The notes beneath the pieces were generated by a model. That model made no database searches and was not told where the DNA came from. It was given only the letters and a program-made list of their open reading frames with translations. From the NCBI GenBank assembly GCA_015068495.1, contig SVKL01000001.1, positions 62,001-126,000 on the forward strand: a stretch of 64,000 nucleotides of DNA, in the 5' to 3' direction. The position numbers were made by a program, and so were the translations under genes. Shown piece after piece: positions 1 through 21,589 of the stretch (the stretch's first letter is position 1; each line of letters starts with the position of its first letter). Origin of the DNA: Oscillospiraceae bacterium. Lineage in GTDB: Bacteria; Bacillota; Clostridia; Oscillospirales; Oscillospiraceae.

Positions 1-1
1 G

Positions 2-1288
2 TGGGATAAGCGTCCTTTGACAGAGGTGCAGCAAGATGGGATGCCCAGTGAATTTGTAAGACGTAAGCTGGATGAGAACATTGAGGCAAAGAGCAAAACA
101 AACTATGTATACCACTACCCCTATGACGAGCCGGAGTGCCGCGGCGTTTCTCCCATTTACGTAAAGAATGTTTATGAGTATATTGCGGAGAAGGACCCTT
201 ATCACGTGGTTATGATGACCACCCGCAGCGCCGGTGAGCACGCGGATTGCGCCGACTGGTTTGAGGTGCATCCTTATATCGCTCCCGAGAATATGCCGGA
301 TGGTCGCCGGGTTTACGGTCGCCCCATGAACACCATGGGTAATTACATTGACGATATTTCCAAGCTGAACCGGCCGGACAAGTGCATTGGCTTCCTGCCC
401 ACCACATTCTCCTACCAATTCAGCTCTGTCTATGCGGATTATCCCACCTTTGATGAACTGATTTGCCACACTTGGGCGGCAATGATTCACGGCGGTAAAT
501 CCCTTGACCCCTATGCTTATCACGATGTGAATGACCGGGCGGCGATGTATGAGGGTATGCGCTATGTGTTCGGCAGCTTTGAGGCGCTGGAAGACTTTAT
601 GCTGTTTGGCAAGCGGACGGTGCTGCTGCGGACGCAGGATGCAGAGGCTGTGCTGTATGAGCTGAACGACCAGAAGATGTTCGTGCTGGTAAACTTCAAT
701 CAGACACCCCAGACAGTTACTGTCGACGGCATCAGCGGCACTTGGCACGAGTTCCGTCACAACCGTACCATTACCGGCAATACCTTCCAAATGCAGCCCT
801 TTGAGGTTGTGATCGGCACCAGCGAGGTGCGGGATGCCCGTATGCCTACCTATCAGGAAACTAAGGAACTGATTGATGCCAAGGAATATGAGCGTACCCA
901 CACCGGCAGCCTGCTGTTTAATAAGCATAACGAAATTGCCATTACATCAGCCGGTATCACAGCCCATCGCCAGTGGAAGATGTTTGACGGTGTGCGTGAT
1001 AACTTCGCTCTGCAAATTTTGAAAGACGGCGAGCGTTTCTATGAGCTGGACCTGACCAAGGTGAAGCCCAATTTCGATAAGGTGGTTATCAGCGGCTGGC
1101 ACTTGGACGGAATCAATCTGAAGCTTCGGGTGAACGGCGAGCTGGTGGAGCCGGAAATTATCGAGGCAACCAACAAGGAGCTTTCTACCGTTACCTTTGT
1201 GCTGAAGGAAAAGGTATGTCCGGAAGGCTTGCGGCTGGAGTTTACATCCCCCAGCGGTATGGAAATTTACGAAATTGAAGTCTTTTAA
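2..1288 (+). CDS. CBM9/glycoside-hydrolase-like paralogue, copy 1 (5' truncated by window edge)
   Basis: C-terminal part of the first of four tandem paralogues; the frame is open to the window edge, so the true start lies upstream. It covers the C-terminal half of a TIM-barrel-like core with the motif DEPE (codons from 125), which the other copies share and which resembles the acid motif of several glycoside hydrolase clans. A beta-sandwich follows (NFNQTPQTVTVDG), then a C-terminal beta domain of about 110 residues. It is the most divergent of the four: it has YPYDEPE where the others have YINDEPE. An intrinsic terminator follows directly. The fold assignment comes from motif reading, the substrate is unknown and enzymatic activity is unproven. 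Confidence 0.7.
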   Translation, partial: WDKRPLTEVQQDGMPSEFVRRKLDENIEAKSKTNYVYHYPYDEPECRGVSPIYVKNVYEYIAEKDPYHVVMMTTRSAGEHADCADWFEVHPYIAPENMPDGRRVYGRPMNTMGNYIDDISKLNRPDKCIGFLPTTFSYQFSSVYADYPTFDELICHTWAAMIHGGKSLDPYAYHDVNDRAAMYEGMRYVFGSFEALEDFMLFGKRTVLLRTQDAEAVLYELNDQKMFVLVNFNQTPQTVTVDGISGTWHEFRHNRTITGNTFQMQPFEVVIGTSEVRDARMPTYQETKELIDAKEYERTHTGSLLFNKHNEIAITSAGITAHRQWKMFDGVRDNFALQILKDGERFYELDLTKVKPNFDKVVISGWHLDGINLKLRVNGELVEPEIIEATNKELSTVTFVLKEKVCPEGLRLEFTSPSGMEIYEIEVF

Positions 1289-1303
1289 CAGAATCTAACC
1301 GGA

Positions 1304-1335
1304 ACCGGGGTACGCTATGGCGTACCCCGGTTTTT
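1304..1335 (+). terminator. Intrinsic terminator after copy 1
   Basis: A 12-bp perfect stem (ACCGGGGTACGC / GCGTACCCCGGT) with a TATG loop is followed by a T run. It separates copy 1 from the promoter of copy 2. Confidence 0.9.
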
Positions 1336-1382
1336 GCGGCGGCAATCCAGCAAAATAATCACAGAAAAAAGCAAAATTGTCA

Positions 1383-1410
1383 TTGTGTTTTGGGTGTGGT
1401 TTGTTATAAT
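1383..1410 (+). promoter_or_regulatory. Sigma-A promoter of copy 2
   Basis: TTGTGT, 16 bp, TATAAT. The same spacing and relative position occur before copies 3 and 4. Confidence 0.75.
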
Positions 1411-1416
1411 GAGCCT

Positions 1417-1565
1417 GTATAGAAAAATACAAATTCCCGAAACCGCAGGGCAAAAACTTGCGGGACTGCCAACGCTCCTGCGCCTGCTGAGGCGGAGAAA
1501 TTTTTGTTTTTTTTGTTGGCAGTGTGAAAGCTCCCCAGTTTGGAGTTTCACAGAAAGGAGAAAAA
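1417..1565 (+). promoter_or_regulatory. Structured RNA leader, first instance
   Basis: The leader starts about 6 nt after the -10 box. Helices in order: P0 GTAT/ATAC; P1 CCGCA/TGCGG; P2 CTGCCAAC/GTTGGCAG with an inner arm GCCT/AGGC; P3 GTGAAA/TTTCAC. P3 ends just before AGAAAGGAG. The same architecture recurs before copies 3 and 4 with changed but still paired bases. The class is not recognised. Its position, ending at the Shine-Dalgarno sequence, suggests control of translation or transcription in cis. Confidence 0.7.
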
Positions 1566-4241
1566 ATGGCAAATAAGAATTGCATTACGCTGGACGGACG
1601 TATGGAGGATAAGGCGTGGGAAAATGCCCAAGTCTATGCAGATTTCAAACGGATGAAGTCGGAGGGGGACGACCTTGGCGGCGCACCTACAGTCTTCAAG
1701 ATTCTGCCTATGGAGGACCGGATTTACTTTGGCTTTCAGTGTATAGAGCCGGATATGCGGCAGGTGATTGACAACACCCCCGGCAGGGAAGTGCAGGAAA
1801 TATGGGGCGCAGACCGGGTGGAGCTGTTTTTTGCACCCACCGGCAGCACCTATGAATACTATCAGTTTGTGATGTTCTTCAGCGGAAAGACAGTGTGTAA
1901 TTACTATGCAGAGGGCGGCCAGATTCGTCCGGAGCCCTATGCGCCGGAATGGAAAAGCGCGGTGTATGTGGGGGAAGACCACTGGTCTGTGGTGGCAGAG
2001 ATTCCCCTGACAGCGTTGTATATGACCCCCAACGACAGTATGGGCGACACGTGGCTGGTAAACGCGATTCGCTGCCGTACGCAGGAGGGCTTGATCCGGC
2101 CGCTCAACAGCTCTATTTGTGAGCTGAACAGAAAATTTACCGAGGTGTTCCTGCCTGTAGCGGGAATGCCCAAGCGTCCTGTGGAGGATGATATCCGCAT
2201 TGTATCTGCAACGCCGAATTTGACGGAAAAGGACGGCGACGGCTACCGCGGCACCATGACTGTCAAGACCTTAAACGGCGTAGACGGCGCATTTACATTC
2301 ACCTCTGACCACGGGGAAGCTGCTGAGGTTTCCTTAAAAGCAGGCACAAATGAATTTGAAGTGCCTTGCTATTTTGCAGAGCTGGGGCGGCATCAGGTCT
2401 CCTTGGCATTGACCCGCGCAGGGGATGGAAAGGTATTTAAGCGGTATTATCCTGTAATTGCTACCTATGAGCCCATCAAGCTGCGGTTTACGTGCCCCGA
2501 GTATCGCTGCAACTTCTACCCCGGACAGGACTACTCCAAGATTGTGGGTACTGTAACGGCGGCAAAGCCCGTTACCTTGAAGCTGGAGGGCCCCGGCATT
2601 GAGACCCAAGTGAAGACCCCCAACGCAGACGGCAGCTTTACATTTGACACGCCTAATTTTGAAGAGGGGGAAGCTTGGCTGACTGCCACCATCGACGGCG
2701 AGGAAAAGAAGCAAAAAATCCGCCGTTTGGCACCTACCGGTCACACAATGGCTTGGATTTCCGGCGGTAATTTGATTGTTAACGGTAAGCCGGTGCTGGC
2801 GCGGAATATGTTCTCTCCGGGATATTTGGGCAGCAGAGTTCTTGCCCAGCGGTACGCTGCAGAGAATTTCCACGAGACCAGAGAGGTTTGCGGTCAGTCC
2901 GGCTGGATGGCAGCGGACACGATTTTGGTCAGAGAGCTGAAAATGTCTGCCGCTGAGGTGCGAGAGGACATTATGCCCTGTGACGAGGTGCTGCGGTTCT
3001 TTGATAAGCAAATCAAAGCAAATGCGGAGCGGGATTTTGTCTACTACTACATTAACGACGAGCCGGAATGCCGCGGCGTGTCTCCCATTTATCTGCAGAA
3101 TGTTTACAACTACATTTCGGATCACGATCCCTACCACGTGATTATGACCACCAGCCGCAGTGCAAGCAACTTTATTGAGGCGGTGGACTGGGTGCAGACC
3201 CACCCCTACATTGACCCGGAGAATATGCCGGATGGCCGCCGGGTGTATATGCGTCCGATGAATACCATAGGCAGCTTTATCGACGATATTGCAAAGCTGA
3301 ACCGGTCGGATAAGTGCATTGGCTTCCTGCCCACCGCATTTTCCTATAAATTCAGCTCTAACTATGCGGATTATCCCACGCTGGATGAAATTATCTGCCA
3401 CACTTGGGCGGCGACCAATCACGGCAGTAAGACCCTGCATCCCTACGCCTACCACGATATGAATGACCGTCCGTCGGTGATTGAGGGTATGCGGTATCTG
3501 TTCTCGTCCTTTGAGGCACTGGAGGAGCTTGTGCTGCTGGGAAAGCGGACCATACTGCTGCGGACAAACGATGCGGAAGCGGCGCTGTATGACTGTGGGG
3601 ATGAGAGGATGTTCGTACTGGTGAACTTCACCCAAGCACCTCAGACGGTGACGGTGGACGGCATTAGCGGCACTTGGCATAATTTCCGCCATAACAGCAC
3701 CTTTACCGGCAATACCTTTGAACTGAAGCCCTTGGAGGTGTTGGTCGGCACCAATGTGGTAAAGGATGCGGGTCTGCCCACTTACGAGGAAACCGCTGCG
3801 CTGATTGACAAGCTGGAGTATGAACGTACCCACGGCGGCAGCTTGCTGTTTGAACGGCATAACGATGTGGAGGTAAATTGCGTCGGTATGACAAATGTTT
3901 CCGGTTTGACAAGCAACAACCGATACAGATTCTTTGACGGCGTGCGGGAAAATCTCGGCGCAACCATACTCAAGCAGGGCGAGCGCTACTGTGAGGTGAA
4001 TCTGACCAAGGTGCAGCCTACTTTCCGGAAGGCAGCCATCAGCGGCTGGAATTTGCAGAACAATGTAACGCTGAAGCTGTGTATTGACGGTGAATGGATT
4101 GAGCCTGACATTGCGCAGATAGAGGCAAATGACCGGACCACCACCTTTATTTTGAAGGACGGGGTTTCTCCCGAGGCAATACGTTTTGACTTCTTCTGCG
4201 AGGATTACGGTGAAATTTTCGAGATTGAAGTTTTTGCGTAA
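1566..4241 (+). CDS. CBM9/glycoside-hydrolase-like paralogue, copy 2
   Basis: 891 residues. The start ATG follows AGAAAGGAGAAAAA and begins MANKN, without signal peptide or membrane segment, so a cytoplasmic location is inferred. Residues about 5-190 read as a CBM9/DOMON-like domain (ITLDGRMEDKAW at the start, RVELFFAPTGS later). Two beta-rich segments follow to about residue 400. A GH-like core begins at GGNLIVNGKPVLARN and contains DEPE at residues 498-501. Next come a beta-sandwich (VNFTQAPQTVTVDG) and a C-terminal beta domain. This domain order is typical of polysaccharide-active proteins, but a substrate cannot be read from sequence. The gene is transcribed alone: promoter, structured leader and terminator all flank it. 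Confidence 0.75.
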   Translation: MANKNCITLDGRMEDKAWENAQVYADFKRMKSEGDDLGGAPTVFKILPMEDRIYFGFQCIEPDMRQVIDNTPGREVQEIWGADRVELFFAPTGSTYEYYQFVMFFSGKTVCNYYAEGGQIRPEPYAPEWKSAVYVGEDHWSVVAEIPLTALYMTPNDSMGDTWLVNAIRCRTQEGLIRPLNSSICELNRKFTEVFLPVAGMPKRPVEDDIRIVSATPNLTEKDGDGYRGTMTVKTLNGVDGAFTFTSDHGEAAEVSLKAGTNEFEVPCYFAELGRHQVSLALTRAGDGKVFKRYYPVIATYEPIKLRFTCPEYRCNFYPGQDYSKIVGTVTAAKPVTLKLEGPGIETQVKTPNADGSFTFDTPNFEEGEAWLTATIDGEEKKQKIRRLAPTGHTMAWISGGNLIVNGKPVLARNMFSPGYLGSRVLAQRYAAENFHETREVCGQSGWMAADTILVRELKMSAAEVREDIMPCDEVLRFFDKQIKANAERDFVYYYINDEPECRGVSPIYLQNVYNYISDHDPYHVIMTTSRSASNFIEAVDWVQTHPYIDPENMPDGRRVYMRPMNTIGSFIDDIAKLNRSDKCIGFLPTAFSYKFSSNYADYPTLDEIICHTWAATNHGSKTLHPYAYHDMNDRPSVIEGMRYLFSSFEALEELVLLGKRTILLRTNDAEAALYDCGDERMFVLVNFTQAPQTVTVDGISGTWHNFRHNSTFTGNTFELKPLEVLVGTNVVKDAGLPTYEETAALIDKLEYERTHGGSLLFERHNDVEVNCVGMTNVSGLTSNNRYRFFDGVRENLGATILKQGERYCEVNLTKVQPTFRKAAISGWNLQNNVTLKLCIDGEWIEPDIAQIEANDRTTTFILKDGVSPEAIRFDFFCEDYGEIFEIEVFA

Positions 4242-4256
4242 GACATAGATAATGAA

Positions 4257-4288
4257 ACGGGGTGTGCGTGCAGCACACCCCGTTTTTT
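4257..4288 (+). terminator. Intrinsic terminator after copy 2
   Basis: ACGGGGTGTG / CACACCCCGT stem with a 7-nt loop, followed by a run of T. Confidence 0.9.
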
Positions 4289-4333
4289 GTGTGGCAAAAT
4301 CGCAAAACAATCAAAGAAAATCGCAAGAAAACG

Positions 4334-4361
4334 TTGCATTTGTGGAAAACACTGGTATAAT
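4334..4361 (+). promoter_or_regulatory. Sigma-A promoter of copy 3
   Basis: TTGCAT, 16 bp, TATAAT. Confidence 0.8.
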
Positions 4362-4367
4362 AAAGCC

Positions 4368-4520
4368 GTATGGAAATACATAAATCCCCGAAACCTCAAG
4401 GTGAAAAACTTGAGGGTCTGCCAATGCTCTCAGCCCCTTTGGAGCGGAGAAAATTTTATTCTTTTTACATTGGCGGTGTGAAGAAATCCCACCTTTGGGG
4501 CTTCACAGAAAGGAGAAGAA
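4368..4520 (+). promoter_or_regulatory. Structured RNA leader, second instance
   Basis: P0 GTAT/ATAC at the 5' end; P1 CCTCAAG (4394-4400) / CTTGAGG (4409-4415); P2 CTGCCAATG (4418-4426) / CATTGGCGG (4468-4476); P3 GTGAAG (4478-4483) / CTTCAC (4501-4506), followed by AGAAAGGAG. Compared with the first instance, P1 changes several base pairs while remaining paired, and P2 and P3 also keep pairing. Confidence 0.72.
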
Positions 4521-7169
4521 ATGGCAAACAAGGACTACATCACATTAGACGGACGTATGGAAGACAAGGCTTGGGAAAAGGCGCAGGTCTATACCAATTT
4601 CCTGCGGATGAATTCTCAGGGCGGCGGCGTTGCTGAGGCGCAGACAATCTTTAAGATTCTGCCCTTAGAGGACCGGGTTTACTTCGGTTTCAAATGCTTG
4701 GAGCTGGATATGAAGCACGTAGCTGAAACCCATTCTACTCGGGATATGTGGGGTAATGACCGGGTTGAATTGTTTTTTGCGCCTACCGGCAGTACTTATG
4801 AATACTATCAGTTCGTGGTATCCTTCGGCGGCAAAATGGTGTGCAATTACTACGCAGAGGGCGGACAGATTCAGCCGGATCCCTATGCGCCGGAATGGAA
4901 GAGCGCGGTGTATGCAGGTGAGGACCACTGGTCTGTAGTGATAGAGGTGCCTCTGACAGCACTGTATATGACACCTAACGACAGCCTGAGCGATACTTGG
5001 CTGGTGAATGCAATTCGCTGCCGCACAGCCGCAGGAAAGGGCTGCATGAACAGCTCTTGCTGTGAGTTGAACAGAAAATTTACGGATGCATTCTTGTCTG
5101 TAGAGGGAATGCCAAAACGTCCCATGGAGGATGATATCCGCATTGCATCTGCAACGCTGAATATTACTGACAAAGACGAAGAGGGCTATATCGGTACCAT
5201 GACCGTGAATACCCTCAACGGCACAGCCGGCAAGTTTACCTTTACCTCCGACCACGGGGAAACTGCCGAGGTTTCTCTGGAAGCTGGCGCAAATGAATTT
5301 GCTGTGCCCTGTCGGTTTGCAGAGTTGGGACGGCAAAGAGTGTCTTTGGCGTTGACTCGTATTGGCGACGAAAAAGAATTTAAGCGCTATTATCCTGTGG
5401 CGGTTACTTATGAGCCCATTAAGCTGCGGTTTACCCTGCCTGAATACCGCTGCAACTTCTACCCCGGACAGGATTATTCCAAGATTGTGGGTACGGTAGC
5501 AGCTGCAAAGCCTGTTACGCTGAAGCTGGAGGGACCCGGCATTGAGACCCAGGTAAAGACCCCCAATGCAGACGGCAGCTTTGAATTTGATACTCCCAAT
5601 TTTGAACTGGGTGAGGCTTGGCTGACTGCCACCATTGATGGCGAGGAGAAGAAGCAGAAAATTCGTCGTTTGGCGCCCAGCGGCCGTATGATGACATGGA
5701 TTTCCGGCGGTAATCTGATTATCAACGGTAAGCCTGTGTTGGCACGGTATATGTTTGCCAACGGATATTTGGGCAGCCGGGTACTGCGGGAAAGATACCA
5801 AAACGAGGACTTCCACGAAACCAGACAAATCAGAAGCCAAACCGGCTGGATGGCGGCGGATACCATTCTGGTCAGAGAGCTGAAGATGCCTAAGGATGAG
5901 GTACGAAAGGACGTTATGCCCTGTGACGAGGTGCTGCGGTTCTTTGATAAGCAAATTGAGGCCAATAAGGACAGAGATTTTACCCACTACTACATTAACG
6001 ACGAGCCGGAGTGCCGTGGTGTGTCTCCCATTTACCTGAAAAATGTTTACGACTACATCACAGACAAAGACCCCTACCACGTAGTTATGATTGCCAGCCG
6101 TAACGCAAGCAATTTCATTGATGCCATTGACTGGGTGCAGTCCCATCCCTACATTGATCCCGAGAATATGCCGGATGGCCGACGGGTTTATATGCGCCCC
6201 ATGAACAGTATGGGCAGCTTTATCGACAGTATTGCGAAACTGAATCGGCCGGATAAGTGTATCGGCTTCCTGCCTTCAGCCTTCTCCTATGAATTTAGCT
6301 CTGTTTATGCAGATTATCCCACGCTGGATGAAATTATCTGCCACACATGGGCGGCAATGATTCACGGCGGCAAGACCTTGAGCCCCTATGCTTACCACGA
6401 TATGAACGACCGTCCTGCGGTGATTGAGGGTATGCGGTATCTATTCTCCTCTTTTGAGGCATTGGAGGAGATTGTGCTGCTGGGCAAACGTACAACCTTG
6501 CTGCGGACGAAGGATGCTGAAGCGGTGCTGTATGACCATGGTGACGAGCAGATGTTCGTGTTGGTGAACTTCAATCAGACACCTCAGACGGTTACCGTTG
6601 ACGGTATCAGCGGCACTTGGCACGAATTCCGTCACAACCGCACTATTACCGGTAACACCTTTGAAATGAAGCCTTTGGAGGTTATTATCGGCACCAATGT
6701 GGTGAAGGATGCGGTTCTGGTTACCTATGAAGAAACCGCTGCGCTGATTGATAAGCTGGAATACGAGCGTACCCACGGTGGCAGCCTGCTGTTTGCTCAC
6801 CAAAATGATGTTGAGTTGACCTTTGCAGGTATGACAAACGTCAGCCGATACAAGCTCTTTGACGGTGTACGGGAAAATCTTGGCGGAACAATTCTCAAGA
6901 AGGGTGAACGCTTCTTGGAGGTAAATCTGACCAAGCTGCAGCCTACTTTCCGGAAGGCAGCCATCAGCGGTTGGAATCTGAAGGGCAATGTAAAGCTTCA
7001 GCTGCGTGTCGGTGGCGAGCTGGTTGCACCGGAGATTGCAGAGGTACAGGAAAATGAGCGGACGACCACCTTCATTCTGAAGGATGCGGTATCTCCCGAG
7101 GCAATTCGCTTCGAATTCTCCTGTGATGATGACTACGGTGAAGTTTACGAAATGGAAATCTTTGCATAA
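4521..7169 (+). CDS. CBM9/glycoside-hydrolase-like paralogue, copy 3
   Basis: 882 residues, with the same layout as copy 2: CBM9-like N-terminus (ITLDGRMEDKAWEKAQ), beta-rich middle, GH-like core with DEPE at residues 494-497, beta-sandwich (VNFNQTPQTVTVDG) and C-terminal beta domain. The start ATG is fixed by the AGAAAGGAG ribosome site. No signal peptide is visible. It is very similar to copies 2 and 4 over the whole length, which argues for tandem duplication. The segment just after the GGNLIINGKPVLAR motif differs most between copies (MFANGYLGSRVLRERYQ here) and could be a specificity loop; that is inference. Confidence 0.75.
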   Translation: MANKDYITLDGRMEDKAWEKAQVYTNFLRMNSQGGGVAEAQTIFKILPLEDRVYFGFKCLELDMKHVAETHSTRDMWGNDRVELFFAPTGSTYEYYQFVVSFGGKMVCNYYAEGGQIQPDPYAPEWKSAVYAGEDHWSVVIEVPLTALYMTPNDSLSDTWLVNAIRCRTAAGKGCMNSSCCELNRKFTDAFLSVEGMPKRPMEDDIRIASATLNITDKDEEGYIGTMTVNTLNGTAGKFTFTSDHGETAEVSLEAGANEFAVPCRFAELGRQRVSLALTRIGDEKEFKRYYPVAVTYEPIKLRFTLPEYRCNFYPGQDYSKIVGTVAAAKPVTLKLEGPGIETQVKTPNADGSFEFDTPNFELGEAWLTATIDGEEKKQKIRRLAPSGRMMTWISGGNLIINGKPVLARYMFANGYLGSRVLRERYQNEDFHETRQIRSQTGWMAADTILVRELKMPKDEVRKDVMPCDEVLRFFDKQIEANKDRDFTHYYINDEPECRGVSPIYLKNVYDYITDKDPYHVVMIASRNASNFIDAIDWVQSHPYIDPENMPDGRRVYMRPMNSMGSFIDSIAKLNRPDKCIGFLPSAFSYEFSSVYADYPTLDEIICHTWAAMIHGGKTLSPYAYHDMNDRPAVIEGMRYLFSSFEALEEIVLLGKRTTLLRTKDAEAVLYDHGDEQMFVLVNFNQTPQTVTVDGISGTWHEFRHNRTITGNTFEMKPLEVIIGTNVVKDAVLVTYEETAALIDKLEYERTHGGSLLFAHQNDVELTFAGMTNVSRYKLFDGVRENLGGTILKKGERFLEVNLTKLQPTFRKAAISGWNLKGNVKLQLRVGGELVAPEIAEVQENERTTTFILKDAVSPEAIRFEFSCDDDYGEVYEMEIFA

Positions 7170-7185
7170 AAACATAAACCGTGGA

Positions 7186-7215
7186 ACGGGGTGTGCAATT
7201 TGCACACCCCGTTTT
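7186..7215 (+). terminator. Intrinsic terminator after copy 3
   Basis: 11-bp stem ACGGGGTGTGC / GCACACCCCGT, loop AATTT, then TTTT. It is nearly the same stem as after copy 2, so the terminator was duplicated with the gene. Confidence 0.85.
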
Positions 7216-7301
7216 GTTGCATTTATAATGAAAACCAACAATGAATCACCGGAAAGAGCAAGATGTCAGCAAAAAAATGTGATAAATAGCAAGAAACGTC
7301 A

Positions 7302-7329
7302 TTGCATTATGGGAAGGGTTTGGTATAAT
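7302..7329 (+). promoter_or_regulatory. Sigma-A promoter of copy 4
   Basis: TTGCAT, 16 bp, TATAAT, as for copy 3. Confidence 0.8.
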
Positions 7330-7335
7330 GAGCAT

Positions 7336-7472
7336 TGTATCGTGGATACGCATTTCGAACCCCCGGCGCAAGAAACGCATGGGGTCTGCCAATGTACTTG
7401 CCGTTTGGGGAAGAAAACTTGCATTGGCGGTGTGAAGCATCCTGCATTTGGGCTTCACAGAAAGGAGAAGAA
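7336..7472 (+). promoter_or_regulatory. Structured RNA leader, third instance
   Basis: P0 GTATC/GATAC (7337-7349); P1 with a rewritten sequence CCCC..GCG / CGC..GGGG; P2 CTGCCAATG / CATTGGCGG; P3 GTGAAGC / GCTTCAC, then AGAAAGGAG. Primary sequence in P1 and in the loops has diverged, but helix order and the GGTCTGCCAA junction are kept. The gene-to-gene gap of 303 bp holds only the terminator, promoter and this leader. Confidence 0.7.
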
Positions 7473-10124
7473 ATGGCAAACAAGGACTACATCACACTAG
7501 ACGGACGTATGGAGGAAGCCGCTTGGAGAAATGCGAAGGTTTTTGCTGACTTCAAACGGATTAAGGCAGAAAATGGCGATCTTGGCGGAGCGCCGACGGT
7601 ATTCAAAATTCTGCCTATGGAGGACCGGATTTACTTCGGTTTCCAATGCTTAGAGCCGGATATGCAGCACGTAATTGACTCCCATCCCACCAATGGTATG
7701 TGGAACACAGACCGGGTGGAGCTGTTTTTCGCGCCTACCGGCAGCACCTATGAATACTATCAGTTTGTGGTGACCTTTGGCGGTAAAATGGTGTGCAATT
7801 ACTATGCGGAGGGCGGTCAGATTCGTCCGGAGCCCTATGCGCCGGAATGGAGAAGCGCAGTCTATGCGGGGGAAGACCGGTGGTCTGCGGTGATAGAGAT
7901 TCCCCTGACAGCGCTGTATATGACTCCCAATGACAGCATGAGCGATAGCTGGCTGGTAAATGCGATTCGCTGTCGTACCCAAGCGGGGCAGCCCCGGGCT
8001 TTGAACAGTTCTCCCTGTGAGCTGGACAGAATCTTTACCGAGAAGTTTTTGCTGGTAGAGGGGATGCCCAAGCGTCCTGCGGAGGATGATATCCGCATCG
8101 TGTCTGCAACGCCGGACATTACGGATAAGGAAGAGGAAGGCTACAGCGGCAAGATGACTGTCAAGACCCTCAACGGGGTAGACGGCACGTTTACCTTTAC
8201 CTCCGACCACGGGGAAACGACTGAAGTTTCTTTGAAAGCAGGCGCCAATGAATTTGCGGTGCCCTGCTGCTTTGCAGAGCTGGGGCGGCATAGAATTTCT
8301 TTGGCTTTGACTCGCGCAGGTGACGGAAAGGTCTTTAAGCGGTATTATCCTGTAATCGCCAGCTATGAGCCCATTAAGCTGCGGCTTACGCTGCCGGAGT
8401 TCCGCTGTAATTTCTATCCCGGACAGGACTATTCCAAAGTTGTGGGTACAGTAACTGCTGCCAAGCCGGTTACCTTGAAGCTAGAAGGCCCCGGTATTGA
8501 GACGCAGGTGAAGACCCCCAACGCGGACGGCAGCTTCCAGTTTGATACCCCCAATTTTGAATGTGGCGAGGCGTGGCTGACAGCCACCATCGATGGCGAG
8601 GAGAAAAAACAGAAAATCCGCCGTTTGGCGCCTACCGGTCACACAATGACTTGGATTTCCGGCGGCAATTTGATTATCAACGGTGAGCCTGTGCTGGCGC
8701 GCCATATACACGCAAAAGACTATCGGGCCGGCAAGTGCCTCCAAGCTAGGTACGAAGCAGAAAACTTTCACGAAACGCTGCAGGTAAGAGGTCAGGCTGG
8801 CTGGATGGCAGCGGATACGATTTTGACCAGAGAACTGAAAATGTCTGCCGCTGAGGTGCAAAAGGATGTTATGCCCTGTGATGCGGTGCTGCGGTTCTTT
8901 GACAAGCAGATTGATGCCAACAAGGACAGAGATTTTACCCACTACTACATCAATGATGAGCCGGAATGCCGTGGCGTGTCGCCTATTTACTTAAAGCACG
9001 TGTATGACTATATTACGGACAAGGACCCCTACCACGTAATTGCAACCTCCAGCCGTAATGCCAGCGGTTTTATTGAGTCTTTTGACTGGGTACAGACCCA
9101 TCCCTACATTGACCCGGAGAATGTGCCGGATGGACGACGGGTTTATATGCGTCCCATGAATTCCATAGGCAGCTTTATCGACGATATTGCAAAGCTGAAC
9201 CGGTCAGATAAGTGTATCGGTTTCCTGCCAACAGCGTTCTCTTATGAGTTCAAATCGAAATTTGCGGACTATCCCACGCTGGACGAGATGATCTGCCACA
9301 CTTGGGCGGCGATGATTCACGGCGGCAAGTCGCTGAATCCCTATGCCGGACACGATTTGAATGACCGTCCGTCGGTGACAGAGGGTGTGCGGTATATTTT
9401 CTCCTCCTTTGAGGCGCTGGAGAAAATTGTGCTGTTTGGCAAGCGGAGTGTGCTGCTACGGACAAAGGATGCCGAGGCTGTGCTGTACGACCACGGGGAT
9501 GAGCAGATGTTTGTGCTGGTGAACTTCACCCAAGAGCCCCAGACGGTTACTGTGGACGGTATCAGCGGCACTTGGCACAACTTCCGCCATAATGGCACCA
9601 TTACCGGCAATACCTTTGCACTGAAGCCCTTGGAGGTTATTGTCGGCACCAATGTGGAAAAGGGCGCAGACTTGCCTACCTACGAGGAAACTGCCGGGCT
9701 GATTGATAAGCTGGAGTATGAACGTACTCACGGCGGCAGCCTGCTGTTTGGTCATCAGAATGATGTGGAGGTAACCTTTGCCGGTATGACAAATGTTGTC
9801 CGCTACAAGCTCTTCGACGGTATGCGGGGAAACCTTGCTATGACGGTGCTTAAGCAGGGTGAGCGGTACTGTGAAGTAAATCTGACCAAGGTGCAGCCCA
9901 CCTTCCGGAAGGTGGCCATCAGCGGTTGGAATCTGCAAGGCAATGTAAACCTTCAGCTGCGTGTGGACGGTGAATTGGTAACGCCCCACCTTGCGCAGGT
10001 AGAGGAAAATGAGCGGACCACAACCTTCGTTTTGAAGGATGCGGTATCTCCCGAGGCAATTCGCTTCGCGTTCTCCTGCGATGAAGACTACGGTGAAATT
10101 TACGAAATTGATGTTTTTGCCTAA
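7473..10124 (+). CDS. CBM9/glycoside-hydrolase-like paralogue, copy 4
   Basis: 883 residues. A longer in-frame reading exists upstream but lies inside the RNA leader, so the ATG after AGAAAGGAGAAGAA is chosen. The layout is as in copies 2 and 3, with DEPE at residues 495-498. After GGNLIINGEPVLAR the copy-specific segment reads HIHAKDYRAGKCLQARYE, unlike the other copies. YAGHDLND replaces YAYHDMND in the barrel. No export signal. Last gene of the array; a terminator shared with the opposite-strand gene follows. Confidence 0.75.
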   Translation: MANKDYITLDGRMEEAAWRNAKVFADFKRIKAENGDLGGAPTVFKILPMEDRIYFGFQCLEPDMQHVIDSHPTNGMWNTDRVELFFAPTGSTYEYYQFVVTFGGKMVCNYYAEGGQIRPEPYAPEWRSAVYAGEDRWSAVIEIPLTALYMTPNDSMSDSWLVNAIRCRTQAGQPRALNSSPCELDRIFTEKFLLVEGMPKRPAEDDIRIVSATPDITDKEEEGYSGKMTVKTLNGVDGTFTFTSDHGETTEVSLKAGANEFAVPCCFAELGRHRISLALTRAGDGKVFKRYYPVIASYEPIKLRLTLPEFRCNFYPGQDYSKVVGTVTAAKPVTLKLEGPGIETQVKTPNADGSFQFDTPNFECGEAWLTATIDGEEKKQKIRRLAPTGHTMTWISGGNLIINGEPVLARHIHAKDYRAGKCLQARYEAENFHETLQVRGQAGWMAADTILTRELKMSAAEVQKDVMPCDAVLRFFDKQIDANKDRDFTHYYINDEPECRGVSPIYLKHVYDYITDKDPYHVIATSSRNASGFIESFDWVQTHPYIDPENVPDGRRVYMRPMNSIGSFIDDIAKLNRSDKCIGFLPTAFSYEFKSKFADYPTLDEMICHTWAAMIHGGKSLNPYAGHDLNDRPSVTEGVRYIFSSFEALEKIVLFGKRSVLLRTKDAEAVLYDHGDEQMFVLVNFTQEPQTVTVDGISGTWHNFRHNGTITGNTFALKPLEVIVGTNVEKGADLPTYEETAGLIDKLEYERTHGGSLLFGHQNDVEVTFAGMTNVVRYKLFDGMRGNLAMTVLKQGERYCEVNLTKVQPTFRKVAISGWNLQGNVNLQLRVDGELVTPHLAQVEENERTTTFVLKDAVSPEAIRFAFSCDEDYGEIYEIDVFA

Positions 10125-10137
10125 AGCAATACAAGGA

Positions 10138-10171
10138 AAAGGCAGCCCCTCACAGAGGGACTGCCTTTTTT
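10138..10171. terminator. Bidirectional terminator
   Basis: AAGGCAG..CCCT / AGGG..CTGCCTT hairpin with T runs usable on both strands, between convergent copy 4 and the SanA/YdcF-like gene. Confidence 0.8.
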
Positions 10172-10838
10172 AGCCGTTGGTAATATTTCCGTCCCCATAG
10201 ACGGGGATGGTTTCGCCTAAGTAGGTGGGCTTGGGTTTGGTAATGGAAGTGACAAAGTCCTTATTTCTTGCCAGAATTTCCCGCAAATCCCGCATAAGCT
10301 GACCCCGGTAGCTGCGATAGTCGGCAGATACGCCGTAAGCTTCCAGATTAAGGGCGTTGGCGATGTGCAGAGCTCTGTGCAGGTGGTATTTTTGGGTCAC
10401 AATGATAATCTTTTTGGCTTCAAAAATATGCTTTGCCCGGTAAATGCTTTCGTAGGTGGAAAAGCCTGCGTGGTCCATAAATATGTCAGCTGAGGGGACG
10501 CCGGCATCGATGGCGTATTGCTTCATTACGTTCACTTCGTCATAGTCCGCCTGTCCGTGGTCACCGCTCATCAGGAGCTTTGGGGCGGCACCCTGTTCAT
10601 AAAGCGCCACGCTTTGTTTCAAGCGGTCGGCAAGCATAGCGCTTGGCTGCCCGTTGGCATAGACCCCACAGCCTAGGACCAAGATACAGTCTGCATTCTG
10701 CATAATGGTGGTATCCTCAGGGGATAGAATCTGCCCTTTGGTGGATTGCATCACATAGCAGTTGATGCAAAGCACAACCGCTGCGCAAAAAATCCCCACA
10801 GCCACGGCGATGGAAAAAATTCTTCTGAAAAGTTTCAA
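10170..10838 (-). CDS. SanA/YdcF-family (DUF218) membrane protein
   Basis: About 222 residues from a TTG start at 10838 preceded by GGAAAGGGG. An ATG 22 codons upstream gives a longer form but has a poorer ribosome site. An N-terminal membrane segment (about residues 7-27, IFSIAVAVGIFCAAVVLCI) is followed by a DUF218 domain with the motifs ILVLGCGV, LMSGDHG and TQKYHLHRA. Family members act at the cell envelope (E. coli SanA affects vancomycin sensitivity); the biochemical role is unknown. It is convergent with the paralogue array and shows no operon partner. Confidence 0.8.
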   Translation of the reverse strand: MKLFRRIFSIAVAVGIFCAAVVLCINCYVMQSTKGQILSPEDTTIMQNADCILVLGCGVYANGQPSAMLADRLKQSVALYEQGAAPKLLMSGDHGQADYDEVNVMKQYAIDAGVPSADIFMDHAGFSTYESIYRAKHIFEAKKIIIVTQKYHLHRALHIANALNLEAYGVSADYRSYRGQLMRDLREILARNKDFVTSITKPKPTYLGETIPVYGDGNITNG

Positions 10839-10976
10839 CTTTGCTACCCCTTTCCGAAGTATTTGGAATATTTTAGCACAAAATGGATGAAAATGCAACA
10901 TCAAAAGGTTGGGAAAATGTTGGGAAGACTTTTTCGATTTTCTGTGGTACTATAGTTATGCCGAGAGTAGACGAAT

Positions 10977-11034
10977 ACAAAACAAGCGGAGCGCAAAGGG
11001 CAGACCTGCTGCCCAACAGCGCTTCGCTTGTTTT
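10977..11034 (+). promoter_or_regulatory. Long hairpin in the leader of the phage cassette
   Basis: Nested inverted repeats: AACAAGCG..AGCGC pairs with GCGCT..CGCTTGTT, enclosing GGCAG/CTGCC. It ends in TTTT about 30 bp before the terminase small-subunit gene. It could act as an attenuator or terminator for read-through into the cassette, or as a leader structure. No clear sigma-A promoter was found just upstream; TACTAT at 10948 is the best -10 candidate but lacks a good -35. Confidence 0.45.
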
Positions 11035-11062
11035 ATGAAAAGGAGGAGATGCTGGGGCGATT

Positions 11063-11404
11063 ATGGCGGAAAAGAAGATTTCGCCGAAACGGATTCTCAA
11101 AGAGCTGGCAGCTATCGGCTTTGCAAGTGTGCCGGACTGCATGGATTTTTCTGAGGGAGATGTGCGACTGAAAGAGGGGTTAAAGCCTTTGCAGCGGGCG
11201 GCGATTGCCTCTGTGGAAAAGACAAGCAACGGCGTGCGGGTGAAGTTCTACGACAAAATGAAGGCGCTGGAGCTGCTGGGCAAGCATTTGGGTCTGTTTG
11301 AGGGGAAAGAGAGTACGGAAGTAAAGGACAACAATCTACTGGAGGCAATTTTGCAGGCAACCCGTCAGGAGGTGGACGTATGTGATGTATCAGAGCTTCA
11401 GTAA
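11063..11404 (+). CDS. Phage terminase small subunit
   Basis: 113 residues. The C-terminal segment VKFYDKMKALELLGKHLGLF is the signature of the Firmicutes phage terminase small-subunit family, placed directly before the large subunit with a 23-bp overlap. The N-terminal half (KRILKELAAIGFASVPD) is the DNA-recognition part in related proteins. It selects packaging-site DNA and hands it to the large subunit. Slightly short for the family (usually 130-180), so part of the N-terminal DNA-binding domain may be reduced. The start ATG is preceded by a weak purine stretch. Confidence 0.8.
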   Translation: MAEKKISPKRILKELAAIGFASVPDCMDFSEGDVRLKEGLKPLQRAAIASVEKTSNGVRVKFYDKMKALELLGKHLGLFEGKESTEVKDNNLLEAILQATRQEVDVCDVSELQ

Positions 11405-12611
11405 GCGGCAGATGCTGGCTATGACTTGGTGGAACCGGCCGGAGCTGAGCTTTTACGAGGGGATTGTGTGTGACGGCGCGATTCGCTCGGGGAAAACCTT
11501 GAGTATGGTAACAGGGTTTTTCCTTTGGAGCATGGGGAATTTCGATGGCTGCTGCTTCGGAATATGCGGCAGAACCATTGGCGCGCTGCGGCGGAATATT
11601 GTGGGGAACCTGCTCGGTTGGCTGGGGGGTGTGGTGGACATTCAGGAAAACCGCAGCGAGAACAAGCTGGTTGTGAAAAATGCCGATGGCAGGCGCAACA
11701 CCTATTATCTGTTTGGCGGTCAGGATGAAAGCGCTTATAAGCTGATTCAAGGCATTACACTGGCGGGGGTACTGCTGGACGAGGCGGCGCTGATGCCCCG
11801 TTCCTTTGTGGAGCAGGCTTGCGCCCGTTGCTCGGTGAAGGGGTCGAAGCTGTGGTTTAACTGCAATCCGGAAGGACCGGAGCATTGGCTGTATAAGCAG
11901 TGGATACAAAAGGCCAAGGAGAAAGGGCTTTTACATCTTCACTTTACTATGGAGGACAATCCCGGACTTGACCCGGCAATCCGCAGGCGTTATGAGGCAA
12001 TGTACACCGGTGTGTTTTACCGGCGGTATATCCTAGGCCAATGGTGTATGGCAGAGGGACTGGTGTATGACTTTTTGCCGGACAAGCATATTGCCAAGGA
12101 GCTTCCCGCAAATGGCCGGTATTACATCTCTGTGGACTACGGCACGTGTAACCCTTTCTCGGCGGGGCTTTGGTGCGTGACGGGGGATAAAGCGGTGCGA
12201 ATGCGGGAGTTTTATCACAGCGGACGGGAAACCGGAAAAATGCTCACCGATGAGGAATATCACAAAGAGCTGGTGAAATTGGCAGGTGACCTGCCGGTGG
12301 AAACGGTGGTGGTTGACCCGTCGGCGGCATCCTTGATTGCCACCATCCGCAGGCACGGCGTTTTTTCTGTGCGAAAGGCAAGAAATGAGGTGTTAAACGG
12401 GATTCATTTGGTGGCAAGCCTGCTGCGGGAGGGGCGGCTGCAATTTGCGCCCCAATGCAAGGATACGATTCGGGAATTTTCTCTGTACCGGTGGGAGGAG
12501 AACGGAGAGACTGACCGAGTGGTAAAAGAGAACGACCACGCGATGGATGACATTCGCTATTTCTGCGCGACGGTTTTGCGCAGAGACAAGCAGATAAGGA
12601 GAACAGAATGA
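11382..12611 (+). CDS. Phage terminase large subunit (PBSX/SPP1-like)
   Basis: 409 residues, full length for the family. Walker A GAIRSGKT is at residues 32-39 and the Walker B-type segment is GVLLDEAAL. The C-terminal RNase H-like nuclease supplies acidic motifs (YISVDYGT, VVVDPSA, NDHAMDDIRY). It is the packaging ATPase and headful or cos nuclease. All key motifs are intact, which argues against decay. The start overlaps the small subunit; ATG at 11382 or 11385 are both possible. Confidence 0.92.
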   Translation: MMYQSFSKRQMLAMTWWNRPELSFYEGIVCDGAIRSGKTLSMVTGFFLWSMGNFDGCCFGICGRTIGALRRNIVGNLLGWLGGVVDIQENRSENKLVVKNADGRRNTYYLFGGQDESAYKLIQGITLAGVLLDEAALMPRSFVEQACARCSVKGSKLWFNCNPEGPEHWLYKQWIQKAKEKGLLHLHFTMEDNPGLDPAIRRRYEAMYTGVFYRRYILGQWCMAEGLVYDFLPDKHIAKELPANGRYYISVDYGTCNPFSAGLWCVTGDKAVRMREFYHSGRETGKMLTDEEYHKELVKLAGDLPVETVVVDPSAASLIATIRRHGVFSVRKARNEVLNGIHLVASLLREGRLQFAPQCKDTIREFSLYRWEENGETDRVVKENDHAMDDIRYFCATVLRRDKQIRRTE

Positions 12612-12805
12612 AAAAATATCTACAAAATTATTTTCTTCCCATATGGGCAAAGGAGACCCTATTGCGGGACAAACGGAATTTGGAACGGGAAAACTTGGCG
12701 CTGAAGCAAAAAATTGAAAGCTTGCAGGCGTATATTGACGGCTTGCATATGGGTTTGCGCAGCAATAAACGGATCCATATTATCAATCGGGGAGGGGAAG
12801 CATGA
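12608..12805 (+). CDS. Small coiled-coil phage protein
   Basis: 65 residues, overlapping the terminase stop and the portal start by 4 bp each. The central stretch (LLRDKRNLERENLALKQKIE) has heptad-like leucines typical of a short coiled coil. No family is recognised. The tight overlaps on both sides indicate a real, translationally coupled gene in the packaging module. Confidence 0.65.
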   Translation: MKKYLQNYFLPIWAKETLLRDKRNLERENLALKQKIESLQAYIDGLHMGLRSNKRIHIINRGGEA

Positions 12806-14094
12806 GCATTTACAAATATGAGCAGGTATTTGGCGCATGGGATAAAACCAGCGGCGCGATGCGCCGGGCCATCCAGCGATGGTTTGCTATGTACTATGAT
12901 GCAGAGACCGGAGAATCCACAGATGCCTGCCAACGGATTCCCTACACAGTGGTCAACAAGCTGGTGAAGGCGGTGTTTGGGGAATACAAAGCCTCCAGCA
13001 ACACAGCCTTTGGCAGGAAACTGCTGAAGCGTTTGGATGAAAAGAAACGGTTAGCTTTGCAATTGGCACTGGTAGGCGGTGCGTGCTACATTAAGCCCTG
13101 TCCTGAAAAGGACGGGTTTTCTTTTACCCTTGCACCGAGAAATCAGGTGCTGCTGTTTGGGGTAGATGGGGAAGGAAGACCCACCGATATAGGTCTCGTG
13201 GAGAGAAGTGTGGAGGGAAACTACTATTACACACTTTTAGAACGGCGGACGGTGGACGCAGATGGCTATCTTACCATTTCCAACCGGCTGTATCGGAGCA
13301 GAGATTCTCAGAATCTGGGAACAGAAGTGCCGCTGAGGAACGTTTCTGCATACAAGGATTTGGCGGAAAGCTATTGCTTCCCCAAGCCGGTGGGTTCTGT
13401 GGGCTTGGTGGAAATGAAGCTGCCCATACTCAACTGTGTAGACGGCTCCTGTGACGGGGTATCGGTCTACGCTGCCGCGGAAGGGCTGATTCGCAACATT
13501 AACACCAATGAAGCCCAAATGAACGGAGAGTTTATCCGGGGAGAGAGCCGGATTGTTGCCTCGAAGGATTTGCTGGATGGAGAGCAGGGCTTACAGAACC
13601 ATTTGTTTGTGGGCTTGGATGAAGACCCGGAAAGTGTGGGCATTACCGTTTTCTCGCCTCAGCTGCGGGAGCAATCCTTCTTGGCGCGAAAGCAGGAATA
13701 CTTACGGAACATAGAGAGCATCATCGGTCTGAAACGGGGTATGCTGTCCGATGCCAATGAGCTGGACCGCACCGCAACGGAGATTTCTGCCAGCACAGCG
13801 GAGTTTTCCCTCACGGTGCTGGAGTTTCAGGTGATGTGGCAGCAGGCGCTGGAAAAGGTGATGATTTTGTGCGAGATTCTTGGGGAGCTGTACGGTATCA
13901 CCCCTTGCGATGCAGGGGAAGTGACCGTGGACTGGGGCAACGGCACACTTTATGACCAAGAGAAAATCTGGGCAGATTATATGGAAATGGTGGATAAGGG
14001 CATTTTGAAGCCCGAGGTGGCGCTGGCTTGGCGGTTTGGTATGACCGGCGAGAGCCAGCAGGCGATCCGGGAAAAGCTGATGCCGCAGAATTAG
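12802..14094 (+). CDS. Phage portal protein (SPP1 gp6-like)
   Basis: 430 residues. Its position after terminase and motifs such as RIPYTVVNKLVKAVFGE, EAQMNGEFIRGESRIV and NELDRTATEISASTAEF fit the SPP1-type portal family. It would form the dodecameric DNA channel at the capsid vertex. Full length. In related phages a Mu F-like minor head gene follows; here a 190-bp gap with repeats follows instead. Confidence 0.85.
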   Translation: MSIYKYEQVFGAWDKTSGAMRRAIQRWFAMYYDAETGESTDACQRIPYTVVNKLVKAVFGEYKASSNTAFGRKLLKRLDEKKRLALQLALVGGACYIKPCPEKDGFSFTLAPRNQVLLFGVDGEGRPTDIGLVERSVEGNYYYTLLERRTVDADGYLTISNRLYRSRDSQNLGTEVPLRNVSAYKDLAESYCFPKPVGSVGLVEMKLPILNCVDGSCDGVSVYAAAEGLIRNINTNEAQMNGEFIRGESRIVASKDLLDGEQGLQNHLFVGLDEDPESVGITVFSPQLREQSFLARKQEYLRNIESIIGLKRGMLSDANELDRTATEISASTAEFSLTVLEFQVMWQQALEKVMILCEILGELYGITPCDAGEVTVDWGNGTLYDQEKIWADYMEMVDKGILKPEVALAWRFGMTGESQQAIREKLMPQN

Positions 14095-14110
14095 TCGTCT
14101 TGCGGAAACG

Positions 14111-14178
14111 GCAAGGACCGTCGGGGACGCCGGTCCCTACAATGGGCAAGGACCGTCGAGGACGCCGGTCCCTACAAT
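14111..14178 (+). repeat. Two tandem copies of a 33-bp palindromic repeat
   Basis: Units at 14111-14143 and 14146-14178 differ at one base (GTCGGGG versus GTCGAGG). Each contains GGACCG / CGGTCC arms. The tail TTCGCAATGACA matches the end of the element at 17024-17056, so both belong to one dispersed family. They lie in the only sizeable gap of the packaging-head module. Confidence 0.75.
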
Positions 14179-14284
14179 TCGCAATGACAACAAATAAGGT
14201 GATGAAGACAGCCGGGAGGCTGCTTTTTTCATAAATATTTTGGGATGCAACCCCGTAAAAAGCGTAAAGCGAAAGGAGAAAAGA

Positions 14285-14797
14285 ATGAAACGAGAATTTT
14301 TGCAAGGTCTGAAGGTAGGGGAAACACCCCTTTCCAAAGAGGTGATCGATGCCATTATGGCGGAGAACGGTCGGGACATTGAGGGGGTAAAAGCCCGATA
14401 TGCCGACTATGAGGAACTAAAACAGCAGCTTGCGCAAGCGGAAACGGTTGCGGCAAAGACTTGGGAGGAGCGTCTACACCAGCAGGTGGATACCCACAGA
14501 CGGGAAATGTCTGATTTGATTTTCAGCCACAATCTGGAAAAGGCAATTCTCTCGGCAAAGGGCCGCAACGCCAAGGCAATCACCGCCCTTTTGGATGTGG
14601 AAACCCTTAAGACCAGCGAAAATCAGACGGCCGACTTGGAAGAAGCGCTGCAACAGTTAAAACAGGACTGCGGCTACCTCTTCCAGTCGGAGACCCCGCC
14701 CCCTTACGCAAGGGGCACCGGCGCAAACCAGCCGGATGTAAACAGAAGTCCTGCCACCTTGGCAGGCGCACTGCTAGAAAAATTTGAAAGGAAGTAA
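14285..14797 (+). CDS. Phage scaffolding protein (GP20-like)
   Basis: 170 residues from the ATG following GAAAGGAGAAAAG; an in-frame upstream start lacks a ribosome site. The protein is charged and helical (YEELKQQLAQAETVAAKTWE), with the usual start KREFLQGLKVG and the ILSAKGRNAKAITALLD segment of the Phage_GP20 minor structural/scaffold family. It lies directly before the capsid gene, as expected for an assembly chaperone that leaves the prohead. Confidence 0.82.
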   Translation: MKREFLQGLKVGETPLSKEVIDAIMAENGRDIEGVKARYADYEELKQQLAQAETVAAKTWEERLHQQVDTHRREMSDLIFSHNLEKAILSAKGRNAKAITALLDVETLKTSENQTADLEEALQQLKQDCGYLFQSETPPPYARGTGANQPDVNRSPATLAGALLEKFERK

Positions 14798-14803
14798 TGA
14801 ATT

Positions 14804-15775
14804 ATGGCAATTACACTCGCAGAAGCAAAGGTCGGTATGGCCGACAAGGTAGATCAGCAGATCGTTGATATGTTCCGTCGCAGCTCTTTACTGCTGGACA
14901 ATATGGTATTTGATAACGTGATTTCTCCCGGCACCGGCGGCAGCACCCTGACTTACGGCTACATTCAGCTGAAGTCTCCCGCAACCGCAGCCACCCGTAC
15001 CGTGGGCAGTGAATATGTCCCCGGTGAGGCAAAGAAGGAGAAGAAGACCGCCAATGCAATCATTATGGGCGGCGCATTCCAGATGGACCGCGTGATTCAG
15101 AACACCGCCGGCGCTGCCAACGAAATGGCATTTCAGGCGGAGCAGAAGATTAAGGCAACTGCAAACTTCTTCCACAATCTGGTGATTAACGGCACTGGCG
15201 ATGCGCAGGGCGATGGCTACGTGACCGGCACCTTTGACGGTCTGAAGAAGCTGCTGTCCGGCACTGCCAACGAAATTACCAGCCAGGTGAGTCTGAAGAC
15301 CTCCAACGAGCTGGACGCCAACTACAACGCATTTTTGGACGAGATGGACAGCTTCATCAGCACCTTGGACGGCACACCCTCTATGCTGCTGATGAACAGA
15401 GCGATGCTGGTGAAGCTCCGCTCCATTGCCCGCCGCGCCGGTTACTATGAGCGCAGTCAGGATGATTTTGGCCGCACTGTAGAGACCTATGCCGGTGTGC
15501 CTATGGTGGATATGGGTCAGTACTACAACGGCACTACCGTTGAGGACGTGGTCGCCACCAAGGGCGGCAAGACTGCAATCTATGCGGTATCTCTGGGCTT
15601 GGACGGCTTCCACGGCATTTCTCCTATGGGCGACGGCGTGGTCCAGTCCTACCTGCCTGACCTGAATGCTCCCGGCGCGGTGAAGACCGGCGAGGTGGAG
15701 CTGGTGGCAGGCGTTGTTCTGAAGAACACTCTGAAGGCTGCTGTGCTGAAGGATATCGCCATCGCCGCTGCGTAA
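14804..15775 (+). CDS. Phage major capsid protein
   Basis: 323 residues, following the scaffold by 6 bp. The sequence (AEAKVGMADKVDQQIVDMFR at the start; later SMLLMNRAMLVKLRSIARRA and TYAGVPMVDMGQYY) resembles HK97-fold coat proteins of Firmicutes siphoviruses that use a separate scaffold. Intact length. Codons are more regular than in neighbouring tail genes, consistent with high expression. Confidence 0.88.
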   Translation: MAITLAEAKVGMADKVDQQIVDMFRRSSLLLDNMVFDNVISPGTGGSTLTYGYIQLKSPATAATRTVGSEYVPGEAKKEKKTANAIIMGGAFQMDRVIQNTAGAANEMAFQAEQKIKATANFFHNLVINGTGDAQGDGYVTGTFDGLKKLLSGTANEITSQVSLKTSNELDANYNAFLDEMDSFISTLDGTPSMLLMNRAMLVKLRSIARRAGYYERSQDDFGRTVETYAGVPMVDMGQYYNGTTVEDVVATKGGKTAIYAVSLGLDGFHGISPMGDGVVQSYLPDLNAPGAVKTGEVELVAGVVLKNTLKAAVLKDIAIAAA

Positions 15776-21585: not shown

Positions 21586-21589
21586 AACG

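Follow-up and report, generated by a model that had tools for sequence, protein, structure and literature searches.

The question raised by the locus described here is what kind of RNA lies between the promoter and the start codon of each of three tandem carbohydrate-enzyme genes, and what it does there. The genes stand at the beginning of a 64,000-nt stretch of DNA (the window; G000:C9:62001-126000) from the 1.77-Mb assembly of an Oscillospiraceae bacterium, with G000 denoting this source genome and other G-numbers further genomes. A reading of the sequence alone had noted ahead of each gene an unrecognised, structured leader. Based on the comparisons assembled below, it is a structured cis-acting mRNA leader, belonging to no named family, which is conserved in shape while its sequence is rewritten, with compensatory changes beyond those expected from phylogeny.

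All three leaders carry the same helices in the order first proposed, namely P0 at the predicted transcription start, P1, P2 with an inner arm, and P3 next to the Shine-Dalgarno sequence (Table 1). With the start (+1) assumed to lie six bases after the -10 box, arithmetic predicts leaders of 149, 153 and 137 nt for copies 6, 7 and 8 (start codons at 1566, 4521 and 7473), in keeping with the earlier estimate of about 150 nt, and their folding z-scores against dinucleotide shuffles are -3.45, -2.16 and -2.72. In the minimum-energy folds of the 12 complete long leaders introduced below, P1, P2 and P3 are formed completely, or with few pairs missing, in every leader, while P0 forms in 10 and the inner arm adopts its drawn register in eight, taking a different register in four G000 leaders. 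P0 begins 5-7 nt past the -10 box in 12 of 12, and hence near the predicted +1. Two details of the sequence-only reading hold in part. The three window promoters do have the same 16-bp spacer, but this is not universal, since 13 of 17 matched family promoters have 16 bp and four have 17; likewise, P3 abuts the Shine-Dalgarno sequence as described, but does not pair with it.

Seven more complete leaders came from the sequence ahead of family genes in three further genomes, giving 12 complete long leaders from four genomes of one genus (G000 copies 4-8, two from G060, one from G064 and four from G110). Two relatives identified by name are Oscillospiraceae metagenome genomes, with buffalo rectum and goat cecum as their sources. 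Excluded from the set were truncated leaders (G110 copy 5 and the G064 copy at L040:9302), divergent ones (two from G072 and G000 copy 1), short ones (G000 copy 3, G041, G066, two from G060, G064 and G110 copy 2), and G000 copy 2 and the G051 genes, which have no leader, are unclassified or lie at a contig edge. Across the set P1 reads CCGCAAG/CTTGCGG, CCTCAAG/CTTGAGG or CCCC..GCG/CGC..GGGG in G000, TGCAGAGCATTT/AAATGCTCTGCG or CGCGGAGC/GCTCCGCG in G060 and G064, and GCCCA/TGGGC, ACCTA/TGGGT or ACCCAAG/CTTGGGT in G110, and the sequence of P3 is as variable. Conserved across leaders are the P2 base, CUGCC/GGCAG, in which three of five pairs are invariant and the other two change solely to G-U, and the Shine-Dalgarno element AGAAAGGAG. 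The invariant columns of the automatic alignment comprise the letters of these two elements and a few scattered positions, and loops and junctions vary even within the genus.

Covariation was scored over 23 pairs on an automatic MAFFT alignment of 133 columns from P1 to the Shine-Dalgarno sequence (A4), with the start point at P1 picked after several inputs had been tried. Conclusions rest on this alignment because the hand alignment was fitted to the structure; compensatory changes in P0 are visible on the latter only. A one-column shift of P3 in three G060/G064 rows of A4 lowers the statistics obtained on it. Of 276 cells, 88.0 % pair, as opposed to 69.5 ± 1.6 % in shuffles (0/500 reaching the real value) and 34-44 % with slid partners. 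Both sides change in 14 of the 23 pairs (shuffles 8.8 ± 1.8; 0/500), which supports the earlier observation that P1 is rewritten between copies while P2 and P3 also change with pairing kept, and the covariation score is 0.523 (shuffles 0.203 ± 0.024; 0/500). Further pair types number 32, versus 27.0 in shuffles (13/500).

Because shuffles ignore relatedness, 300 alignments were also simulated on a FastTree tree with Fitch-mapped substitutions, using an in-house script modelled on R-scape rather than R-scape itself. The summed G statistic on A4, corrected by average product, is 106.0, as compared with 0.3 ± 11.2 and a maximum of 40.2 in the simulations (n = 300), whose maxima for the paired fraction and for pairs changed on both sides are 0.674 (real value 0.88) and 13 (real value 14). 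Covariation is therefore significant with homologues from three genomes beyond the array included. These results bear on the notion that the repeats are DNA operators, or remnants carried along when the genes were duplicated, and have no role as RNA. The leaders do travel with tandemly duplicated genes, and related copies share sequence. However, the phylogeny-aware simulations fail to reproduce the pattern, P1 and P3 are rewritten with pairing kept and G-U accepted, which an operator does not explain, and the repeats sit downstream of the promoter; such an origin is accordingly regarded as very improbable.

At the level of single pairs the 12 sequences give less. With tests restricted to the structure, three of 23 pairs reach E≤0.05 on A4 and 11 of 45 do so on the hand alignment. 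Among all 22,366 column pairs, one reaches E≤0.05, within the structure, and 10 reach E≤1, six of them within it, 12 sequences affording little power. RNAalifold, given no structure, predicts P1, P2 and P3 on A4. On a model-aligned set that includes two truncated leaders (A6) it recovers P1 and P2 but not P3, which counts against P3 there and is likely due to the G060/G064 rows being one column off.

The RNA is real and is absent from the copy of Rfam that was searched, given that its covariation exceeds the simulations, that Rfam holds no match, and that strong matches to its covariance model are confined to one enzyme family. At gathering cut-offs Rfam returned only two tRNAs for the whole window, nothing for loci L039 and L052, and one tRNA but no leader match for L015, L042 and L043, with L040 (G064) lying outside the scan. 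In a permissive search, leaders 2 and 3 gave nothing up to E=1, and the best match of leader 1 was L10_leader (RF00557) at 17.9 bits (E=0.66), far under the gathering score of 44 and unseen for the other two leaders, so that it was set aside as a chance match. The lack of a known riboswitch or leader class, as first stated, and of any strong hit to an existing family, has therefore held. The literature searched likewise contained no description of the leader, which is not proof of absence.

A covariance model built from A4 and run on 136 genomes of the genus, with 25 candidates per genome scored by the RNA model, gave 22 matches in 11 genomes. Every one of the 14 with E≤1.2e-5 directly precedes a family gene (five in G000, five in G110, two each in G060 and G064). 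Because 12 are the training sequences themselves, the other two being the truncated leaders, the informative outcome is that no strong match occurs elsewhere. Both truncated leaders (G110 copy 5 in L052, upstream of 3226-5850 on the minus strand, and the G064 copy in L040, upstream of 9302-11917 on the minus strand) have lost the promoter, P0, P1 and the 5' portion of P2, either through real deletions or through assembly faults. A fifteenth match, G110:C14:43507 (E=0.004), is a family gene's short leader. The remaining seven (G081, G072:C261, G111, G067, G069, G045 and G107; E from 4e-5 to 0.098 per genome) have no downstream gene in common and are likely due to chance, the least certain being that in G081 (E 4e-5), which precedes a gene read as an SGNH-hydrolase. 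In a family-level sample of 400 genomes from 106 genera, with eight candidates per genome scored, only the window's own leaders matched. With so few candidates scored per genome, both of these negatives carry less weight than the genome counts suggest. As far as searched, then, the leader is confined to a single enzyme family within the genus.

A simpler pattern, the P2 base followed by AGAAAGGAG, occurs at 49 places in 33 of the 136 genomes, comprising 12 known leaders and 37 others (six with a reversed control pattern). Among 25 of these loci inspected, the four known leaders combine a P3 stem of at least 7 with two or more additional P2 pairs, and none of the 21 others does. One recurrent match, in G078, G112 and G115 (L084, L087 and L091 near 1500, reverse strand), is a GC-rich intergenic hairpin shortly before a Shine-Dalgarno sequence in an apparent microcompartment operon, where the flanking genes were interpreted as encoding a shell protein and an EutT-like protein; it resembles a selective-processing stem-loop.

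As to what the leader does, the reading to which we give about even credence is that of a gene-family-specific, structured 5' untranslated region (UTR) that would stabilize the message and insulate the start site. Each long-leader paralogue would begin its own transcript with P0 at or near the 5' end, leaving no single-stranded end for RppH and RNase J, while P1, P2 with its inner arm, and P3 would fold the remaining leader into local hairpins. Since P3 ends exactly where AGAAAGGAG begins, upstream RNA would be kept from masking the Shine-Dalgarno sequence, and with the message protected and the ribosome site exposed, the default state would be ON. An extract from PMC3997798 reports that 5' secondary structure stabilizes mRNA, that pairing at the 5' terminus hinders RppH and 5'-end-dependent decay, and that purified Bacillus subtilis RppH requires at least two unpaired 5' nucleotides. 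In computed, ligand-free folds, the Shine-Dalgarno sequence of the 12 long leaders is more open than that of dinucleotide shuffles (0.623 versus 0.427 ± 0.065; 1/200), as it is over all 18 family leaders (0.578 versus 0.440 ± 0.053; 1/200). The 18 leaders surpass 51 control genes in the strength of the hairpin abutting it (P=3.5e-7, an optimistic value since the leaders are related), and the short leaders folded, namely G000 copy 3, G041 and G110 copy 2, retain a strong one although they have neither P1 nor P2; the fourth G060 copy, judged by eye, has no clear one. These data suit a default-ON, insulating 5' UTR and poorly suit a switch held OFF by sequestration; decay protection, contact by a protein and any regulation are inferred.

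Several observations weigh against stabilization and insulation. The P0 energy does not exceed that at 62 promoter-like control sites (P=0.06) and is almost nil (-0.7) in the short leader of G110 copy 2. The hairpin abutting the Shine-Dalgarno sequence is unremarkable in G110_1, G110_3 and G072_2, with 15, 13 and 17 of the 51 controls at least as strong. The Shine-Dalgarno sequence is only about half open in G000 copies 4-7, with copies 4-6 close to their own shuffles, and is less open than shuffles in three of the 18 leaders (G072_2, G000_3 and G110_2); the energy models, moreover, ignore proteins and co-transcriptional folding. Very high expression is not claimed because the array genes are not codon-adapted, their codon adaptation of 0.41-0.49 being average for the window (0.40 ± 0.10 for 46 other open reading frames; 0.63-0.77 for ribosomal genes). 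Finally, a plain stabilizer has no need of a fixed P2 base, which is left unexplained.

A rather improbable alternative is a metabolite riboswitch of a new class, in which translation would be controlled through P3, the Shine-Dalgarno sequence and J01, the segment between P0 and P1. Its appeal lies in a multi-helix leader beside the Shine-Dalgarno sequence, one per gene and ahead of carbohydrate enzymes, and in the finding that isolated J01 pairs with the Shine-Dalgarno sequence better than shuffled J01 does (-4.42 versus -2.98 ± 0.41; 0/500). However, the closing helix that J01 might form there, attractive in single folds and isolated duplexes, was rejected in whole-leader folds, where native J01 leaves the Shine-Dalgarno sequence less paired than shuffled J01 (0.25 versus 0.31; 97 of 100 shuffles reach native), and a leader's own J01 fits no better than a swapped one (P=0.12). 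Known aptamers generally keep conserved loops and junctions, whereas those of the leader are unconserved and offer no aptamer core sequence; strong matches occur in 4 of 136 genomes of the genus and in none of the sampled genomes of other genera, and there is no Rfam relative. Attenuation is likewise not supported, for want of a convincing terminator within the leaders: a scan for a hairpin plus T-run, by a rule that recovers all three intergenic controls, found none in 15 of 18 leaders and weak 5-bp ones in G000_5, G000_6 and G000_1. An earlier scan found none on the plus strand of the three window leaders, though it missed the plus-strand intergenic hairpins too. Because there is no convincing terminator, only the P2 base is fixed, some paralogues do without P1 and P2, and the Shine-Dalgarno sequence is more open than in shuffles, the hint of a sugar- or nucleotide-sensing riboswitch in the sequence-only reading is not supported by the evidence found.

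Since the strict P2 base is what the stabilizer model leaves unexplained, a protein-responsive leader is kept as its main rival, doubtful as it is. In this view CUGCC/GGCAG would be the site of an RNA-binding protein that controls the translation or decay of each paralogue; the enzyme itself might play that part, as might an antiterminator-like factor responding to sugar. Besides the Shine-Dalgarno sequence, the P2 base is the only near-invariant sequence, and the divergent leader of G000 copy 1 also carries CTGCC/GGCAG in its P2. All strong model matches stand before members of a single gene family, and in G060 the family's neighbours resemble, from their translations, an ABC sugar importer; the solute-binding-protein genes of this importer are without the leader, L039 having two matches up to E=10, both before family genes. 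On the other hand, any partner is putative, the element is missing from the G072_1 leader, short-leader paralogues have no P2 at all, and most RNA-binding regulators read a conserved loop or bulge, neither of which is present. Taken further, and just as tentatively, the leader could define a new class of cis-regulatory RNA in one gut clade, with a trans-acting factor reading the fixed helix so that several paralogous carbohydrate enzymes form one post-transcriptional regulon while the other helices drift. Under the favoured stabilizing and insulating role, the nearly fixed 5-bp base, standing out in an otherwise rewritten RNA, suggests a single point of sequence-specific recognition, probably by a protein, through which decay or translation might be tuned.

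The genes themselves belong to a larger array than was first apparent. Rather than three copies with a leader on each, it holds eight tandem paralogues (G000:C9:49265-72121), copies 6, 7 and 8 being the three first noted; four copies lie wholly beyond the window and copy 5 about half beyond it. Relative to copy 7, the remaining seven show 62-79 % identity. Leaders are long in copies 4-8, short in copy 3 and divergent in copy 1, and copy 2, which begins about 30 nt after copy 1, has none. Copies 6-8 each appear to form their own transcript, because terminator-like hairpins separate copies 5/6, 6/7 and 7/8. The encoded proteins, of about 880 aa, combine a CBM9 domain with a TIM barrel and fall in no named family (window part, 1-10124); G110 has six family members in a row. 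About 1.3 kb past the array, window positions 11382-23263 hold prophage-like genes (terminase, portal, an SU10-like capsid just below its cut-off, and DUF859), and positions 53714-56699 encode an NMT1_3-type binding protein, with a high codon adaptation of 0.64, followed by a DctM transporter (TRAP-type).

Table 1. Array genes, promoters, leader helices and terminator-like hairpins in the window
Feature	Position	Strand	Remark
Array copy 5, 3' half	2..1288	+	Long leader upstream of window, model match G000:C9:60518-60640
Promoter, copy 6, TTGTGT-16-TATAAT	1383..1410	+	From sequence
P0 hairpin at predicted +1, copy 6	1416..1431	+	
P1 hairpin, copy 6	1443..1463	+	CCGCAGG/CTTGCGG
P2, inner arm and A/U-rich linker, copy 6	1466..1522	+	CTGCC...GGCAG base
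P3 hairpin, copy 6	1524..1551	+	Abuts Shine-Dalgarno
AGAAAGGAG, copy 6	1552..1560	+	Invariant; Shine-Dalgarno
Array copy 6	1566..4241	+	Glycoside-hydrolase-like protein with CBM9 domain
Terminator-like hairpin, copies 6/7 gap	4257..4289	+	From sequence
Promoter, copy 7, TTGCAT-16-TATAAT	4334..4361	+	From sequence, placed by eye
P0 hairpin, copy 7	4367..4380	+	
P1 hairpin, copy 7	4394..4415	+	CCTCAAG/CTTGAGG
P2 and inner arm, copy 7	4418..4476	+	
P3 hairpin, copy 7	4478..4506	+	
AGAAAGGAG, copy 7	4507..4515	+	
Array copy 7	4521..7169	+	
Terminator-like hairpin, copies 7/8 gap	7186..7216	+	From sequence
Promoter, copy 8, TTGCAT-16-TATAAT	7302..7329	+	From sequence
P0 hairpin, copy 8	7336..7350	+	
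P1 hairpin, copy 8	7360..7384	+	CCCC..GCG/CGC..GGGG
P2 and inner arm, copy 8	7386..7430	+	
P3 hairpin, copy 8	7432..7458	+	
AGAAAGGAG, copy 8	7459..7467	+	
Array copy 8	7473..10124	+	

A well-supported RNA family missing from the searched Rfam copy was thus spotted from three copies in one window, a single genome having held enough paralogues to reveal covariation. With long, short and absent leaders on related genes, the family is a natural library that could be used to measure how much each hairpin contributes to decay and translation in gut Clostridia.

Among known systems, the 5' UTRs of Escherichia coli ompA and papA begin with a 5'-terminal hairpin, followed by further hairpins and a single-stranded Shine-Dalgarno sequence, and it is the pairing, not the sequence, that matters. 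The leader resembles these stabilizers in its predicted 5'-end hairpin, further hairpins and, in computed folds, open Shine-Dalgarno sequence; it differs in belonging to another phylum, in recurring ahead of a set of paralogous genes with several helices that covary and a P2 base that is fixed, and in that its stabilizing role is conjectural. Closer in phylogeny is the cip-cel operon of Clostridium cellulolyticum, for which an extract from PMC4423207 links stem-loops involved in selective RNA processing and stabilization to transcript abundance. It too combines Clostridia, carbohydrate-enzyme genes and stem-loops, but, in what that extract describes, the stem-loops are mainly at the 3' ends of processed transcripts of a single operon, whereas the leader has its own promoter and stands at a primary 5' end. 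Likewise, the xyl-doc cluster of Clostridium papyrosolvens has a long, structured 5' UTR ahead of carbohydrate-enzyme genes, at which, according to an extract from PMC5815224, transcription is blocked, stem-loops are proposed to control termination, and corn stover relieves the block; in the leaders described here, by contrast, no convincing terminator was found.

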